Source of the DNA: a virus
DNA length: 42,524 nt
Virus record (IMG/VR): IMGVR_UViG_3300021440_000052
Coordinates: 1 to 42,524 of that record
Strand: one strand, 5' to 3'
Shown: positions 5,093-26,972 of the stretch, piece after piece
How the letters are laid out: the number at the start of each line of letters is the position of its first letter
How positions within the stretch are numbered: the stretch's first letter is position 1
Translations under genes and position numbers: made by a program
The notes under the pieces: generated by a model
What the model was told of the DNA's origin: nothing
Databases searched by the model: none
What the model saw: only the letters and a program-made list of their open reading frames with translations

Positions 5093-5103
5093 ACCTTTCC
5101 ACT

Positions 5104-5132
5104 TGCAGACGGGCCGCGACGGCCCCTCTGCA
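5104..5132 (+). repeat. 29-bp palindrome, copy 1 (intergenic)
   Basis: The arms TGCAGA-c-GGGCCG and CGGCCC-c-TCTGCA flank a CGA centre, with one C:C mismatch per arm. All 29 bases recur exactly at 26296-26324 inside the ParB-like gene. With the hairpin at 5071 it forms a tandem of two stem-loops after the capsid gene. Confidence 0.9.
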
Positions 5133-6797: not shown

Positions 6798-7224
6798 CAA
6801 CGACAAGCTCGTGCGGTCAATCGAGGACATCGTGTCCTCGATCCTCGCTGATCACCTCGAAGCGGCGGTGAACTCTCTCAAGAGCCGCATCGAGGAAGGC
6901 ATCAGGGAGGTCGCACGCACGACACTCATCTATCGTGAGGTGTGGCGCAACGATGTCTCATACAAGCGTGATGAGATCGTCACGCACGAAGGTGGCGTGT
7001 GGCTATCCCTCAAGGACAGCACCGACATCCGGCCTGGCACGGACCCTGCTTGGCGTCTTATCGTCAAGCGCGGTGAGCGTGGCCTCTCCCCCTCCATCAA
7101 GATTGATCTGGACGGTCTGCTGACCGCTCACTATCCTGATGGCACGAAGCAGGACGTTGGGTCGATCAAGGAGCTTGTCAAGTCGCTCCTGATCGAGCAC
7201 GGCGCCATTCCCAAGGGAGACTGA
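6787..7224 (+). CDS. Small protein with a CBM5/12-like module
   Basis: About 145 residues. Residues 1-45 look helical. The middle, YREVWRNDVSYKRDEIVTHE then GGVWLSLKDSTDIRPGTD and AWRLI, has the pattern of a carbohydrate-binding family 5/12 module (a short three-strand fold with spaced Trp and Tyr). Such modules are usually seen in tail or head decoration proteins, so an accessory virion role is inferred. AAGGGG lies seven bases before the ATG. It overlaps the portal stop and sits before the connector genes. Confidence 0.75.
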   Translation: MPRDNDKLVRSIEDIVSSILADHLEAAVNSLKSRIEEGIREVARTTLIYREVWRNDVSYKRDEIVTHEGGVWLSLKDSTDIRPGTDPAWRLIVKRGERGLSPSIKIDLDGLLTAHYPDGTKQDVGSIKELVKSLLIEHGAIPKGD

Positions 7225-7226
7225 TC

Positions 7227-7973
7227 GTGACGCAGTACCCAACGTTTGACCTCGACACGATCAAGGATGACCTTGGCATTCCTGTCAGCGACACTACGCT
7301 TGATGCGTGGCTGACGCGACGTTGCGAGGCCATTTGGTCTGCGTTCCGTAAGTACACTGGTCAGTGGCTGTCGCCCAAGGCGACGTTCATCGATGACTGG
7401 CGCAACGCGAGGGACGCGCGCTATGCTGTGTCGTATCCTCCCGGTGATCCGCGCAACTCTGTGTACCTGACGCAGCTGCCTGTCGTCGCCATCACGAAGT
7501 GCGAGTTGCCGAATGGATTTGAGCTTGACGTCACGCGCGTCATCTATGACCCGCGCACCGGTGAGCTCAAGAATGGCGACATCTCTGCTGTGTCGCTGAT
7601 CGATGCGATGGTGACTTATGAGGCTGGCAACGATGCCATCCCGTCCGATCTGTATGATGCGATGATCGGCATCCTCACGCAGATGTATGGCGCACGCCAG
7701 CAAGTCCAGTCCGGTATCGGCGGAATGGGCATCGACACGATCAACGTTCAGGATGTTGGCCTGATCAAGGTGCGCTCCTCATCCTTCGGCTTCGACGACA
7801 AGGTCAACTCGACCGCGACGATGGACCCTCTGCTTGGCCCCTACACCGCCACGCTCGAAGGGTACAAGGACTGGCGCAACAAGCTTGGCCTCGCTGGCCT
7901 TCCTATCCACTCTGTCGTGGAGCCTCCTCCTGCCCCGCTCAAGAATGAGGCTCTGGTCGGAGGTGATCGATGA
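7227..7973 (+). CDS. Head-tail adaptor/connector protein (probable)
   Basis: A 248-residue protein in the position of gp6-like adaptors, which bind beneath the portal. Its N-terminus (TIKDDLGIPVSDTTLDAWL with a following helix) and the central segment DAMVTYEAGNDAIPSDLYDA resemble the helical adaptor core, where a Y.AG...P.DL motif is common. The C-terminus is longer than in the smallest family members. It starts with GTG, with AAGGGAGA about seven bases upstream. The stop overlaps the next ATG. Confidence 0.75.
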   Translation: MTQYPTFDLDTIKDDLGIPVSDTTLDAWLTRRCEAIWSAFRKYTGQWLSPKATFIDDWRNARDARYAVSYPPGDPRNSVYLTQLPVVAITKCELPNGFELDVTRVIYDPRTGELKNGDISAVSLIDAMVTYEAGNDAIPSDLYDAMIGILTQMYGARQQVQSGIGGMGIDTINVQDVGLIKVRSSSFGFDDKVNSTATMDPLLGPYTATLEGYKDWRNKLGLAGLPIHSVVEPPPAPLKNEALVGGDR

Positions 7974-20972: not shown

Positions 20973-21404
20973 ATGAAATTGACGCCGCATTTCTCGTTGG
21001 AGGAGTTTACGCATTCCGATACCGCCGTGTCGCGCGGCATCAACAACTCCCCTCCCCATGACGTCGAGCTCAACATCAAGTTCCTCGCAGAGTTCATGGA
21101 GAAGGTCCGCGAAGTCCTCGGCAACAATCCCATCGTCATCACCAGCGGCTATCGCTCGCCAGCCGTCAACGCGGCTGTCGGCGGATCGTCCACGAGCCAG
21201 CACCTCAGTGGATTGGCGTGCGACTTCACATGTCCTGCCTTCGGCGCTCCCATCGACATCTGTAAGGCAATCATGGCCTCTGGTCTCAAGTATGACCAGC
21301 TCATCCATGAACATCATTCGTGGGTTCACATCAGCATTGCCAAGGAGCCTCGCATGATGGCTCTTACCATCGACAACAACGGCACGCGGCACGGCATCGC
21401 GTGA
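20973..21404 (+). CDS. Endolysin, peptidase M15 family (PF08291 type)
   Basis: A 143-residue zinc carboxy/endopeptidase that cuts peptidoglycan cross-bridges. The metal and catalytic residues are readable: SQHLSGLACDF (H and D ligands), a helix with YDQLIHEH, and SWVHIS with the last His. FSLEEFTHS at the start and ITSGYRSPAVNAAVGGSSTS are family features. There is no signal peptide, so release needs the holin. AAGGA precedes the ATG. Confidence 0.93.
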   Translation: MKLTPHFSLEEFTHSDTAVSRGINNSPPHDVELNIKFLAEFMEKVREVLGNNPIVITSGYRSPAVNAAVGGSSTSQHLSGLACDFTCPAFGAPIDICKAIMASGLKYDQLIHEHHSWVHISIAKEPRMMALTIDNNGTRHGIA

Positions 21405-21550
21405 ACGTCTCAACAATCATTGCGATTGTTGCTAGCATCTTGATGATCATCTTGTTGTTGATGATCTTCGGAGGAGAGAAGCAAGTGAAGCACTCTCCTC
21501 CTCTGAGGCCCTCGATGGGACTTCTCGTTTCTAACCACATAACGGGTTAG
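21401..21550 (+). CDS. Small membrane protein at the end of the lysis cassette
   Basis: A 49-residue protein starting at GTG within the endolysin stop (GTGA overlap). Residues 4-23 (STIIAIVASILMIILLLMIF) form one membrane anchor, followed by a short basic, Pro-containing tail. Position suggests a spanin-like, second holin or antiholin function, but it lacks a lipobox and a coiled coil, so no role is firm. The coding end overlaps the left arm of a hairpin. Confidence 0.55.
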   Translation: MNVSTIIAIVASILMIILLLMIFGGEKQVKHSPPLRPSMGLLVSNHITG

Positions 21551-21567
21551 AAACACAACACTGTTTT
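21527..21567 (+). terminator. Terminator-like hairpin after the lysis genes
   Basis: A perfect 10-bp stem (GTTTCTAACC/GGTTAGAAAC, 21527-21536 with 21545-21554), then ACAACACTGTTTTT. The T run is nine bases away, so termination is probable but not textbook. It overlaps the last codons of the small membrane protein. Confidence 0.55.
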
Positions 21568-21605
21568 TATGATGATTTCAGTGCTGTGAATAGAAATGTG
21601 CCAGT

Positions 21606-21655
21606 CTTTACTGGTGAAAAGAGCGCTTTTCTTTACTGGGTTCTGGGGCGATAAT
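21606..21655 (+). promoter_or_regulatory. Promoter region of the candidate large RNA
   Basis: CTTTACTGG occurs twice, 25 bp apart (21606-21614 and 21631-21639). GATAAT (21650-21655) is a good -10 box, with TTTTCT 17 bp upstream as a weak -35. AGCGCTTTTCTTTACTG (21622-21638) matches the sequence before the protease gene. The expected start, near 21662, coincides with the first base of a perfect hairpin. Confidence 0.5.
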
Positions 21656-21702
21656 CGGCTTCCCTAGTCGAGCGATTGACTAGGGCCGTCGCCCAGTGTC
21701 CT

Positions 21703-21921
21703 CAGCGCTCCTTGTAGCCAGTGACCGCGCGGTGTTCGGTGAAGGGTCCACGATCCTCCGACAAGAAACGGAGGCCGCCATCAAGACCAAGGCGCGGCGA
21801 CCACTTCTAAAACCCCGGCGGTAAGAGGCCAGGACCCGTAGCTCAGCGCTCCTCGTAGCCACGCTCAGCGTCCCGTCGCTTACAAGCTTTATCCCTCCCG
21901 GCCAAGCGCTCATCGTAGCCA
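21703..21921 (+). repeat. Three copies of an 18-nt motif
   Basis: CAGCGCTCCTTGTAGCCA at 21703-21720, CAGCGCTCCTCGTAGCCA at 21844-21861 and AAGCGCTCATCGTAGCCA at 21904-21921. The first two differ by one base; the third by three. Spacing is irregular (141 and 60 bases), which argues against a simple tandem repeat and for a recurring structural or protein-binding element. Confidence 0.8.
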
Positions 21922-22125
21922 GCGCCAGAGGACCCAGTAGCGTCCGCAAAAGCGGAAAGAGCGAACGGTCAACTCGGAGGAGTAGCGAAAGGGGTTCAGG
22001 GCAGAGGGGAGGAAACGCAGCCGCAAGCCGAAAGCGCCTCCATCTGTTACCTGTAAAATTGGAAAGCAAATACCCTGTGAGTATTGCCGTTGAGGGAGAC
22101 GGAGTAGCGACCGTGTCCCGATACG

Positions 22126-22175
22126 CCAGCACTCAGCTGGACGATGATCACGCCGTGACATCGAATAACGTCAAG
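22126..22175 (+). repeat. Cassette leader element, copy A
   Basis: CCAGC...GCTGG hairpin followed by GGACGATGATCACG and a second hairpin, GACAT-CGAATA-ACGTC. Nearly the same element precedes the gene at 23716, and a diverged form the gene at 23340. It sits directly before the ribosome site of the gene at 22191. Confidence 0.65.
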
Positions 22176-22190
22176 TGAAGGAATAGAACA

Positions 22191-22559
22191 ATGTCTGCTA
22201 AGAAGATCACGAAGAAGGTCGCCATCAAGTCCATCGTTTCGACCGTCAAGAACGGCAAGCATGGCGTCAAGGTTCTGCCCGCCAAGAACATCGATGTTGT
22301 CGTCAAGGCCATCGCCAAGAGCAAGGCCAAGACCAAGAAGGAGCGCAAGTCCATCCTCAAGGATGCGATGGACAAGCGTCTGGTCCTCAAGAAGGCCATC
22401 GATGAGAGCAAGACGCAAGATGGCTCGCAGCGCTACAAGGCGCTCAAGGCCATCAGCGCCGCTGGCAAGAAGGGTCTGAGCGTTGCGACGTTCGTGGAGA
22501 AGAACCCTCCCTATCTGGTTCGCTATCTCACGGGCCACGGCCTTGTGACCATTCACTAA
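22191..22559 (+). CDS. Small basic protein, paralogue family member 1
   Basis: A 122-residue, very Lys-rich protein (MSAKKITKKVAIK). Residues 60-122 (DKRLVLKKAIDESKTQDGSQ through KGLSVATFVEKNPPYLVRYL) are about 80% identical to the protein at 23340, and more distantly like the C-terminus of the protein at 25241. The shared part looks like a small helical or winged-helix domain, so nucleic-acid binding is inferred. It is the first gene after the candidate RNA. Confidence 0.8.
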   Translation: MSAKKITKKVAIKSIVSTVKNGKHGVKVLPAKNIDVVVKAIAKSKAKTKKERKSILKDAMDKRLVLKKAIDESKTQDGSQRYKALKAISAAGKKGLSVATFVEKNPPYLVRYLTGHGLVTIH

Positions 22560-22563
22560 GTGT

Positions 22564-22606
22564 TGCGCATGAGGGGAGGGGCTACGGCTCCTCCCCTCTC
22601 CCCAGC
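22564..22606 (+). repeat. Cassette hairpin repeat, copy B
   Basis: TGCGCATGA, then a 12-bp stem (GAGGGGAGGGGC with GCTCCTCCCCTC, one G-U pair, loop TACG) and CTCCCCAGC. It occurs three times after small early genes (also 23240 and 23613). It works plausibly as a terminator or processing hairpin between cassettes. Confidence 0.85.
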
Positions 22607-22636
22607 ATTTGGACTGGACAACGAAGGAGAAAGACA

Positions 22637-22861
22637 ATGGCTGCTATCGAGAACAAGACCTACTACACCATCGCCATCCGTCGCGACGACGGCAAGTGGT
22701 ATCCCGAGTTCGGTGACTATGACCGTGAGGTCGTTGCCGATGAGCGTGCGGACATCCTCCATGGAGCAGAGGTGACCGCCAAGAACGTCAAGATCATTCG
22801 CAGCAACCACGCACAGGCGGACATCGATGCCGCCATCGCCAAGCTCAACAACACCAACTGA
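22637..22861 (+). CDS. Small hypothetical early protein
   Basis: A 74-residue protein (MAAIENKTYYTIAIRRDDGK) with a beta-rich N-terminus resembling a small 'response to D-G-K-W' fold and a helical end (QADIDAAIAKLNNTN). No family recognised. AAGGAG lies before the ATG in the shared GGAGAAAGACAATGGCTGC start region, found also before the genes at 23340 and 23716. Confidence 0.8.
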   Translation: MAAIENKTYYTIAIRRDDGKWYPEFGDYDREVVADERADILHGAEVTAKNVKIIRSNHAQADIDAAIAKLNNTN

Positions 22862-22872
22862 GGAGAGAGACC

Positions 22873-23052
22873 ATGTCGAAGTCGATGTTCAAGGACCCCA
22901 AGGCATACGCCCAGCAATTGCTCACCATCGCTTGCGGGCGCAAGGACGTTGCGCAGAACTTCGTGATCTGCGCGGCACGTGAGTTCCCCCTCTGCCCGGC
23001 CACATTCTTGGTCGATGTGATGAAGGAGCTTCTCAAGGATGAGGGCAAGTAA
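22873..23052 (+). CDS. Small hypothetical protein
   Basis: A 59-residue protein: MSKSMFKDPKAYAQQLLTIA, then CGRKDVAQNFVICAAREF and an acidic-basic end (MKELLKDEGK). It looks like a compact three-helix protein. AGGAGAG lies before the ATG and the spacing to its neighbours is short, so it is part of the same transcription unit. Function unknown. Confidence 0.7.
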   Translation: MSKSMFKDPKAYAQQLLTIACGRKDVAQNFVICAAREFPLCPATFLVDVMKELLKDEGK

Positions 23053-23053
23053 C

Positions 23054-23230
23054 ATGATCCACGATCCAATCAAGATCGCAAACATGAGCGATGCGGAGTT
23101 GAAGGCCGCTGTCATGCGGTTGACGCTCCAAGGACGGTCGCCCAGCGACTTGCGCAAGGTGACCAAGCCCTACCTCGATGAGGTCAAGAAGCGCATCACA
23201 CAGCGAACCGGACACAAGTTCAAGAGCTAG
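23054..23230 (+). CDS. Small basic hypothetical protein
   Basis: A 58-residue, helical protein (MIHDPIKIANMSDAELKAAV) with a basic C-terminus (KKRITQRTGHKFKS). It starts one base after the previous stop. 'MSDAELKAAVMRLTLQGRSP' suggests a small helical DNA-binding or scaffold module, but there is no clear family. Confidence 0.7.
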   Translation: MIHDPIKIANMSDAELKAAVMRLTLQGRSPSDLRKVTKPYLDEVKKRITQRTGHKFKS

Positions 23231-23239
23231 AGGAAGCAT

Positions 23240-23334
23240 TGCGCATGAGGGGGAGGGGCTGTGGCTCCTCCCCTTCTCCCCAGCGCTTCCGCTGGACATG
23301 ACCGCGATGCGGCATGGTATCATGACTAGGAGAA
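23240..23334 (+). repeat. Cassette repeat, copy C (hairpin plus leader element)
   Basis: The TGCGCATGAGGGGG hairpin unit (23240-23284, loop TGTG) runs into CCAGCG-CTTC-CGCTGG and then GCATG-GTAT-CATGA. The loop and stem bases differ from copies A and D while pairing is kept, which favours selection on RNA or operator structure. Confidence 0.8.
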
Positions 23335-23339
23335 AGACA

Positions 23340-23597
23340 ATGGCTGCGAAGAAGAACACCAAGAAGGTCACGAAGGTCGAGCGCAACAACGTGCTGGCCA
23401 ACAATCGCGACAAGCGACTGATCCTTGCCAAGGCCATCGAGGAGGCCAAGACGCAGGACGGCTCGCAGCGCTTCAAGGCACTCAAGGCCATCAGCGCCGC
23501 TGGCAAGAAGGGCCTCCCCATCGCCACGTTCGTGGAGAAGAACCCGCCCTATCTGGTCCGCTATCTGACCAACCACGGCCTCGCCAAGATCGTGTGA
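23340..23597 (+). CDS. Small basic protein, paralogue family member 2
   Basis: An 85-residue paralogue of the protein at 22191. Residues 23-85 align with its C-terminal half without gaps (KTQDGSQRFKALKAISAAGK, FVEKNPPYLVRYLTNHGL). The N-terminal Lys-rich stretch is shorter. The two copies share their leader sequence too, so a whole cassette was duplicated. Possible winged-helix DNA-binding protein; function unknown. Confidence 0.8.
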   Translation: MAAKKNTKKVTKVERNNVLANNRDKRLILAKAIEEAKTQDGSQRFKALKAISAAGKKGLPIATFVEKNPPYLVRYLTNHGLAKIV

Positions 23598-23612
23598 GGC
23601 CAAGAACGGTTC

Positions 23613-23703
23613 TGCGCATGAGGGGGAGGGGCTACGGCTCCTCCCCTTCTCCCCAGCACCGTTGCTGGACGATGATCGCGACGCGACATCGTGTAATGTC
23701 AAG
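23613..23703 (+). repeat. Cassette repeat, copy D (hairpin plus leader element)
   Basis: Hairpin unit 23613-23657 is almost identical to copy C (loop TACG). The following leader element (23653-23703) has CCAGC/GCTGG and a perfect GACAT-CGTGTA-ATGTC hairpin and matches copy A closely. Confidence 0.85.
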
Positions 23704-23715
23704 AGGAGAAAGACA

Positions 23716-23910
23716 ATGGCTGCTAAGAATGGCAAGAGCTTCGCTCACACCTACAAGTATGAGCGTGAGACCAAGGGCACGTGGGTCTACACCCTCTCCC
23801 TGCCGGACGGTGAGCGTGCGTCGGGCACCAACGCGGTCTACTTGCTCAAGAGCGAGTACAAGACCAAGCCCGGTGAGACGATCACCGTCACCTACCAGAT
23901 CAACGCCTAA
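23716..23910 (+). CDS. Small hypothetical early protein
   Basis: A 64-residue, beta-rich protein (MAAKNGKSFAHTYKYERETK, ending KPGETITVTYQINA). It uses the shared start region GGAGAAAGACAATGGCTGCT. Although its leader is duplicated from the same cassette as the gene at 23340, the coding sequence is unrelated, so the leader travels separately from the gene. Confidence 0.78.
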   Translation: MAAKNGKSFAHTYKYERETKGTWVYTLSLPDGERASGTNAVYLLKSEYKTKPGETITVTYQINA

Positions 23911-23925
23911 TCGGAGGGCGCAGTC

Positions 23926-24126
23926 ATGACGATGATGAACCACGTTGAGATCAACGTGTCGCATTTCGGCAAGCACTTCTTCGCTACGCATCCGCGCAGC
24001 GGCACCGATCTGAACAAGATCAAGGAAGTGCTCTGCGAGATCAGGAAGAAGTTTCCTCCCAGAGAGGGATACGAAGTCACGGCCACCTACTGGCAAGCCT
24101 CTGGTAGGAAGTTCATCGAGTCATGA
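23926..24126 (+). CDS. Small hypothetical protein
   Basis: A 66-residue protein (MNHVEINVSHFGKHFFATHP) with a mixed fold and a basic centre (EIRKKFPPREGYEVTATYWQ). It overlaps the next gene by ATGA. No family is recognised. Confidence 0.72.
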   Translation: MTMMNHVEINVSHFGKHFFATHPRSGTDLNKIKEVLCEIRKKFPPREGYEVTATYWQASGRKFIES

Positions 24127-25925: not shown

Positions 25926-26972
25926 ATGGAGATCAAGCCCCTCAACATCAAGGATGGAAGCAAGTACAAGCTCCATCCTCTTTGTGAGATGCTTCCAACG
26001 ATGGACGACGATGGGCTCAAGAAGCTCACCGCCGACATCAAGGCCAATGGGCTCATGGAGCCTATCGTCATCTTCCAGGGCCGCATCCTCGATGGTCGTC
26101 ACCGTCATGCCGCGTGCATGAAGGCGAAGGTCAAGCCTGTCTTCGAGGAGCTGGTTGGTGAGTCGCTGGAGGCTTGGACCTACATCTTGTCCAAGAACCT
26201 TCATCGCCGCCACCTGACCAAGAGCCAGATTGCTGCTCTGGTCGGCGCTACGCCTGCTGTGCTCAAGGCGGGGGGAACTGGAGCCAACCAGCACGTGCAG
26301 ACGGGCCGCGACGGCCCCTCTGCAAAAGATGATGTCACGACGCAGGCCGTTGCCGACAAAGTCGGCATCAGCAAGCGCACCCTCAAGAAGGGCCGTCAGC
26401 TGAACAAGGACGGTGAAGAGGAAGTTGTCAAGGCTGTCAGGGATGGCAAGCTCACCATCGATGAGGGCCTTGAGGTCGCCTCCCTCCCCAAGGGCGAGCA
26501 GAAGGAAGTGCTTGAGGAGAAGGTCGCTGAGAAGGCCACTCCTAAGAAGCGTGAGAAGCCTCCCAAGCCGGAGGTCAAGACCTATGATGTGGTGTACGTC
26601 TCCGTTGAGTCGTTCACCAGCAAGCAGCTGTCTGACTGGGAGACGCACGCGCCCAAGCGTGGTCATCTCGGCTACATCCGCTGCCATCCGTCCGAAGCGC
26701 AGCGCGCTTTCGATCTGGCCAATGCGTGGGGTCGTCAGGTGGTCTCCGTCCTGATGATCAAGCGCAACAAGGCCAACGTCGATAACGTCACGCGCGGCGA
26801 CCACGACATCTGCCTCATCGTCGCGAATGACGATGACATCAGCATTCCTCTCAAGGAGCGGCCCAACAACTGCCTCTCTGAGACGGAGTTCACCAAGCAC
26901 CTCAAGTCGAGGGAAGGCAAGGACAACCTTCTGCTTGGTGACGCGAGGATGGACGGCTGGGAGAAGTCCTAG
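25926..26972 (+). CDS. ParB-like domain fused to a degenerate MT-A70-like domain
   Basis: A 348-residue protein. Residues 1-90 form a ParB/sulfiredoxin-type domain (LTADIKANGLMEPIVIFQGR, then LDGRHRHAACMKA). Two helix-turn-helix segments follow (KSQIAALVGATPAV; QAVADKVGISKRTLKKGRQL). After a basic linker, residues 219-348 align with MT-A70 adenine methyltransferases: YDVVYV, FDLANAWGRQVVSVLMIKRN, TRGDHDICLIV, CLSETEFTKHL and GDARMDGWEKS. The catalytic DPPW expected after YDVVYV is replaced by SVES, so methylation is unlikely. It probably binds DNA as a regulator or partition-like factor. Confidence 0.85.
   Translation: MEIKPLNIKDGSKYKLHPLCEMLPTMDDDGLKKLTADIKANGLMEPIVIFQGRILDGRHRHAACMKAKVKPVFEELVGESLEAWTYILSKNLHRRHLTKSQIAALVGATPAVLKAGGTGANQHVQTGRDGPSAKDDVTTQAVADKVGISKRTLKKGRQLNKDGEEEVVKAVRDGKLTIDEGLEVASLPKGEQKEVLEEKVAEKATPKKREKPPKPEVKTYDVVYVSVESFTSKQLSDWETHAPKRGHLGYIRCHPSEAQRAFDLANAWGRQVVSVLMIKRNKANVDNVTRGDHDICLIVANDDDISIPLKERPNNCLSETEFTKHLKSREGKDNLLLGDARMDGWEKS
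26296..26324 (+). repeat. 29-bp palindrome, copy 2 (inside the ParB-like gene)
   Basis: Identical at all 29 bases to 5104-5132. It encodes about residues 124-133 (VQTGRDGPSA) in the linker between the two helix-turn-helix segments, a site that is variable and Gly/Ser/Gln rich in relatives. An in-frame insertion is the simplest reading. Confidence 0.9.

Follow-up and report, generated by a model that had tools for sequence, protein, structure and literature searches.

An orphan candidate leader RNA upstream of the early genes of an uncultured tailed phage

A non-coding gap between late and early genes

What does the only large internal non-coding gap of an uncultured phage genome encode, and does it act as RNA or as DNA? 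The window, i.e., the whole stretch of DNA that was analysed (42,524 nucleotides), is a 42.5-kb virus record from IMG/VR. It represents a tailed phage: HK97-type terminase, portal, and capsid genes occupy the left part, those for replication (DnaE-type polymerase, helicase, primase) the right part, and practically every gene is on the + strand. Its nearest relatives are distant, with at most about 46–54% amino-acid identity (capsid or polymerase); the terminase, of HK97 type, gives 46% to HK97. The original prediction had placed a large structured RNA in a 640-base gap located between the late and early gene blocks and bordered by the following genes:

20973–21404: endolysin
21401–21550, + strand: small ORF of 49 aa with a hydrophobic N-terminus, overlapping the endolysin stop (codon score 0.23)
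22191–22559, + strand: first early gene, encoding a lysine-rich protein of 122 aa

Codon statistics in the six frames bear out the gap at 21551–22190. Codon scores inside it are negative in 6/6 frames, the 3′ edge excepted, and a conserved reading frame, which had been named as evidence against an RNA, was found neither by codon score nor by family; on these two grounds, coding on either strand is ruled out. When + strand ORFs of ≥40 aa are counted only above a cut-off for codon use, the stretch lacking coding-like ORFs covers 786 nt (21405–22190) and is exceeded in length only by the contig end (41650–42524). We take 21551–22190 as the secure gap because the score of the 49-aa ORF is borderline (typical genes, 0.3–0.6); this ORF has no family match and its coding status is uncertain. 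Perfect hairpins of 8, 7, 9, and 10 bp lie at 21411–21554, within this ORF and at its stop, and 21404–21550 has a folding z of −4.36. As for the right end of the contig (875 nt), its coding signal is weak or absent, and it may hold a packaging site or more non-coding sequence.

The gap was also said to contain an 18-nt motif in three copies and seven GTAGC words, and both are real. The motif CAGCGCTCCTTGTAGCCA starts at 21703, 21844, and 21904 with 0, 1, and 3 mismatches, respectively, against an expectation of 0.06 copies; three copies were reached in no shuffle. The repeat lengthens to 20 nt, as follows:

21701–21720, + strand: repeat copy 1
21842–21861, + strand: repeat copy 2
21902–21921, + strand: repeat copy 3, divergent

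The seven GTAGC words are all on the + strand (21714, 21838, 21855, 21915, 21937, 21982, and 22104), while some 40 would be expected in the 42.5 kb, counting both strands. Six or more within 450 nt occurred in none of the related loci screened, and the hexamers showing the strongest enrichment here over the genome as a whole are GTAGCC, TAGCCA, AGTAGC, and CGTAGC.

Repeats of this kind could act at the DNA level. The gap may be a replication origin or another DNA-level control region, in which the 20-bp repeats would be iteron-like protein sites and the RNA folds incidental. We consider this somewhat unlikely; it is a serious rival because the repeats adjoin the 120-nt segment with the highest AT content of the genome, which could serve for unwinding, and because the cumulative GC skew has its minimum at 21926:

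21521–21640, unstranded: 120-nt segment with the lowest GC content of the genome (39% versus 58%)

The location of the gap, alone of its size inside the genome and between two gene blocks, would also suit an origin. However, the skew swing (−134 to 150) is within the size of a random walk, the copies are irregularly spaced (141 and 60) with the third one divergent, and AGCGCT is frequent throughout the genome (36 sites). Furthermore, an origin leaves unexplained the well-defined fold and the strand-specific GNRA loop described below.

RNA folding and the candidate promoter

The folding energy of 21655–22190, essentially the extent originally given for the RNA, is ordinary (z −0.97), in a genome where 13% of the 200-nt windows have z below −3. 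On adding upstream sequence, z becomes −2.30 for 21606–22180 and −3.5 to −3.8 for 21619–21853. The predicted elements are:

21606–21860, + strand: 5′ RNA domain with a well-defined fold, judged by energy and entropy against shuffles
21621–21627/21845–21851, 21638–21645/21830–21837, 21646–21651/21689–21694, and 21724–21728/21818–21822: helices of the 5′ domain
21663–21684 (hairpin with a GCGA loop) and 21756–21773: further elements of the 5′ domain
21634–21650, + strand: putative switch strand UACUGGGUUCUGGGGCG, an inverted repeat with competing partners at 21830–21840 and 21923–21939
21861–22125, + strand: 3′ body, of less certain fold, with purine-rich loops
21943–21956, 22001–22047, and 22094–22119 (loop AGUAGCGA), + strand: hairpins of the 3′ body, with helix probability >0.9

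The 5′ domain combines an MFE z of −3.1 with a positional entropy of 0.33 bits, compared with 0.98 bits in shuffles; 0/60 shuffles were as low in energy and 0/60 in entropy, and only 3 of the 530 genome windows did better on both measures. Its pair probabilities are mostly >0.9. Since the reverse strand is almost equally stable, the strand is argued mainly from the GCGA tetraloop and the gene direction. The perfect hairpin predicted at the 5′ end, CCCTAGTC/GACTAGGG, was confirmed and grows to about 10 pairs closed by this GCGA (GNRA) loop. The several more perfect stems said to follow it are present, but such stems also appear in shuffles. Taken whole, 21854–22125 is unremarkable (z −0.33).

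The switch strand 21634–21650 has nearly equal duplex energies with its two partners (−31.1 and −30.6 kcal/mol, computed with the surrounding 37 nt), against a background of −19.6 (sd 4.0, minimum −33.8 in 400 draws). Both partner sites contain GGACCC(A)GTAGC, as would be expected of a duplicated module. A switch between two states, in which 21634–21650 would exchange partners, is possible on these modelled energies.

The 5′ domain also holds the candidate promoter:

21627–21655, + strand: candidate sigma70 promoter, TTTTCT-17-GATAAT

With an approximate sigma70 matrix, this site ranks fifth among all + strand positions of the genome; a stricter scan, for 9 of 12 consensus bases, did not report a promoter at this site. 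GATAAT is indeed present, at 21650–21655, six rather than seven bases before the hairpin. The proposed promoter and RNA 5′ end are nonetheless doubtful: the −35 and −10 overlap the best-defined fold, which also draws on sequence upstream of them. The 5′ domain begins upstream of the candidate promoter and holds its −10 within a helix stack, so that the two readings conflict: an RNA that starts upstream of ~21606 would form the domain, whereas one that starts at ~21662 would lack it.

The second start is that of a stand-alone, trans-acting RNA, transcribed from the GATAAT promoter with the GCGA-capped hairpin at 21662 first and processed off upstream of 22191. This RNA would have one of the better-ranked promoter candidates of the + strand and would begin, as stable RNAs usually do, with a stable hairpin. 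However, a start at 21662 discards the best-supported helices and leaves the segment with the ordinary z of 21655–22190, and no terminator is found at the 3′ end. We regard a stand-alone RNA as unlikely.

The end module and the early-gene cassettes

The last 65 nt of the gap recur before other early genes of the same genome:

22126–22190, + strand: two-hairpin leader module adjacent to the Shine–Dalgarno (SD) sequence
23274–23345, + strand: sister leader before 23340 (module copy 23280–23339), with UUCUCC predicted to pair with the SD GGAGAA
23647–23721, + strand: sister leader before 23716 (module copy 23653–23715), with the same predicted UUCUCC–GGAGAA pairing

Comparison of the genome with itself gives three full copies of this module and a shortened fourth one before 22637. 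Among the four, 5 base pairs are changed on both sides, a number reached in 2/500 shuffles, and pairing falls from 92% to 25–55% when the partners are slid by 1–3 columns. A covariance model in which all four copies were included scores the three full copies at 76–99 bits and the truncated one at 36. These comparisons point to a conserved secondary structure with compensatory changes at the ribosome-binding site. The covariation evidence covers the last 65 nt and stems from four paralogues of one genome; 21551–22125 is without covariation because no homologue was found. The leader of 22191 differs from its sisters in that the UUCUCC partner is absent, with the long element in its place, and its SD is only partly paired, a result that depends on the assumed 5′ end.

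The early genes at 22126–23930 form tandem paralogous cassettes, each consisting of a two-hairpin leader, a small gene, and a GC-rich hairpin; the latter has a UACG or UGUG loop (about 22570–22600, 23245–23275, and 23618–23650). The product of 22191 has a C-terminal paralogue encoded at 23340–23597 (68% identical) and has no above-threshold match in PHROG or Pfam. Searches of IMG/VR, GTDB, and phages with this protein and with its paralogue recovered no relatives, and two weak profile matches (relatives of ~42 kb) were unconvincing as homologues. Elsewhere in the genome, a 33-bp hairpin sequence with TGCAGACGGGCCGCGACGGCCCCTCTGCA occurs at 5100–5132, after the capsid gene, and at 26292–26324, inside a ParB-like gene (97% identical).

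The cassette hairpins offer the stand-alone RNA a possible target, as the hairpins with UACG loops downstream of early genes (22580 and 23630) contain GGCUACG, the complement of the loop sequence CGUAGCC. This complementarity spans only 7 nt and does not extend to the third sister hairpin (GGGGCUGUGGCUCC), and we rejected a kissing interaction of this kind.

The original prediction had left open whether the element is a stand-alone RNA or a long leader of 22191. We favour the leader, because no terminator-like site lies between the element and this gene and because the element ends in a 65-nt leader module that also precedes other early genes. Our preferred, still tentative, reading is that the region constitutes a long structured 5′ leader (about 520–590 nt) of the early operon. 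It would consist of the folded 5′ domain and the looser 3′ body, followed by the two-hairpin module at the ribosome-binding site of 22191, and would be transcribed together with this gene. The end module may limit access to the SD, as predicted for the two sister leaders, while the large domain might tune early transcription or translation through partner exchange of 21634–21650, which would alternate between 21830–21840 and 21923–21939. The repeated CNUYGUAGCC and AGUAGCG could be protein or tertiary contact sites. The leader reading is favoured by the non-coding character of the gap, the repeats beyond chance, the low energy and entropy of the 5′ domain, the recurring end module, and the near-equal alternative partners; against it count the searches that found no homologue of 21551–22125, the ordinary z of −0.97 in a genome where low z values are frequent, the stable reverse strand, and the sister leaders, which do without the 500-nt extension.

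Relatives and comparison with known RNAs

The original prediction had likened the element to GOLLD and ROOL and pointed to Rfam and to homologous gaps in related phages, neither of which yielded a counterpart. Rfam cmscan of the region gave no family match at the gathering score or even at E ≤ 10; the best sub-threshold matches, to trypanosome, ciliate, and archaeal snoRNAs, were regarded as chance. BLAST against 50,697 phage records returned only short chance matches at E ≤ 10 and no nucleotide homologue, the 99 records behind the relatives contained no convincing one, and nhmmer found none over 1.7 Mb of related loci. No gap comparable to 21551–22190 follows the endolysin relatives in two annotated Achromobacter phages and seven IMG/VR loci; in one of the relatives (L018), an ordinary gene lies downstream. 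An exact single-motif scan of IMG/VR gave 13 matches with no common context, taken as chance, and the motif pair occurred in neither IMG/VR nor the GTDB genomes (0 in each). A looser triple-motif scan returned at least 119 stretches; among the matches listed, most were codon-phase spaced in an open frame and the remaining ones were unrelated sequence or hairpin arrays, none of them an nhmmer relative. Exact-pattern scans miss diverged copies, and the absence of homologues is therefore not established.

Two other IMG/VR contigs, L224 (about 6960–7340, reverse strand) and L258 (3064–4233), carry non-coding arrays of ~65-nt units, TCGTAGCCAxCC...GGxTGGCC, each unit being a hairpin. The word TCGTAGCCA is common to these arrays and the element; the search pattern required it, which is probably the sole reason.

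The gap could also be an ordinary spacer with no specific RNA function, in which hairpins at the 3′ ends of late genes are combined with a promoter and with sequence that has decayed or been duplicated. The early cassettes arose by local duplication, which can leave remnants, the folding of 21854–22125 is unremarkable, and no homologue was found that would show conservation. Such a spacer would nevertheless have to accommodate, outside any coding sequence, seven GTAGC words and three repeats of 20 nt, as well as the low entropy of the 5′ domain, and compact phage genomes such as this one seldom retain 600 nt of spacer. We consider this explanation quite improbable. A more ambitious proposal sees in the element a large ornate phage RNA of a new class, with no relation to GOLLD or ROOL. 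It would head the early operon as a switch with two states, 21634–21650 exchanging between two duplicated partner modules and so controlling early gene expression, with GUAGC-containing loops as contacts; this we consider unlikely.

What stands of the original prediction is a structured non-coding element upstream of a small basic protein, and we describe it as an orphan candidate leader RNA rather than a demonstrated RNA class. If real, it would place a long structured RNA without known relatives where the late and early genes of an uncultured phage meet, and a compact phage would devote >1% of its genome to a leader RNA. The repeated leader module, for its part, would be a small regulatory element that is directly testable.

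GOLLD RNAs, many of which are longer than 800 nt, and ROOL RNAs often occur close to tRNA islands (PMC12286853), a location that is typical of GOLLD rather than strictly defining; ROOL RNA assembles into a homo-octameric cage. The element shares with GOLLD that it is a large phage-borne non-coding RNA candidate with one half less defined than the other, and with ROOL, which is encoded by phages or prophages and has no known function, a similar size class. The likeness is one of size and phage location only: the element has no Rfam match, no tRNA island accompanies it, and it sits at the leader position of an early operon. Membership in either family is unsupported because the genome has no tRNAs; ARAGORN found neither tRNA nor tmRNA across the 42.5-kb window. 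The put RNA of HK022 is a cis element in early phage transcripts that promotes anti-pausing and antitermination by direct contact with RNA polymerase (PMC9378689). The element lies upstream of the first early gene, a functional analogy by position only, and the phage has a terminase of HK97 type; the element is much larger, and the early cassettes lack clear U-tailed terminators for read-through. Compared with iteron-type origins, the direct repeats do adjoin the most AT-rich segment of the genome, but there are only three, irregularly spaced (141 and 60) and partly divergent, and no initiator protein was identified. Finally, as in mRNA leaders that sequester the SD, the module at 22126–22190 and its copies set two hairpins against the SD, which is predicted to be paired in two of the copies; compared with such autogenous or riboregulatory leaders, it is the 500-nt upstream domain that makes this element unusual.
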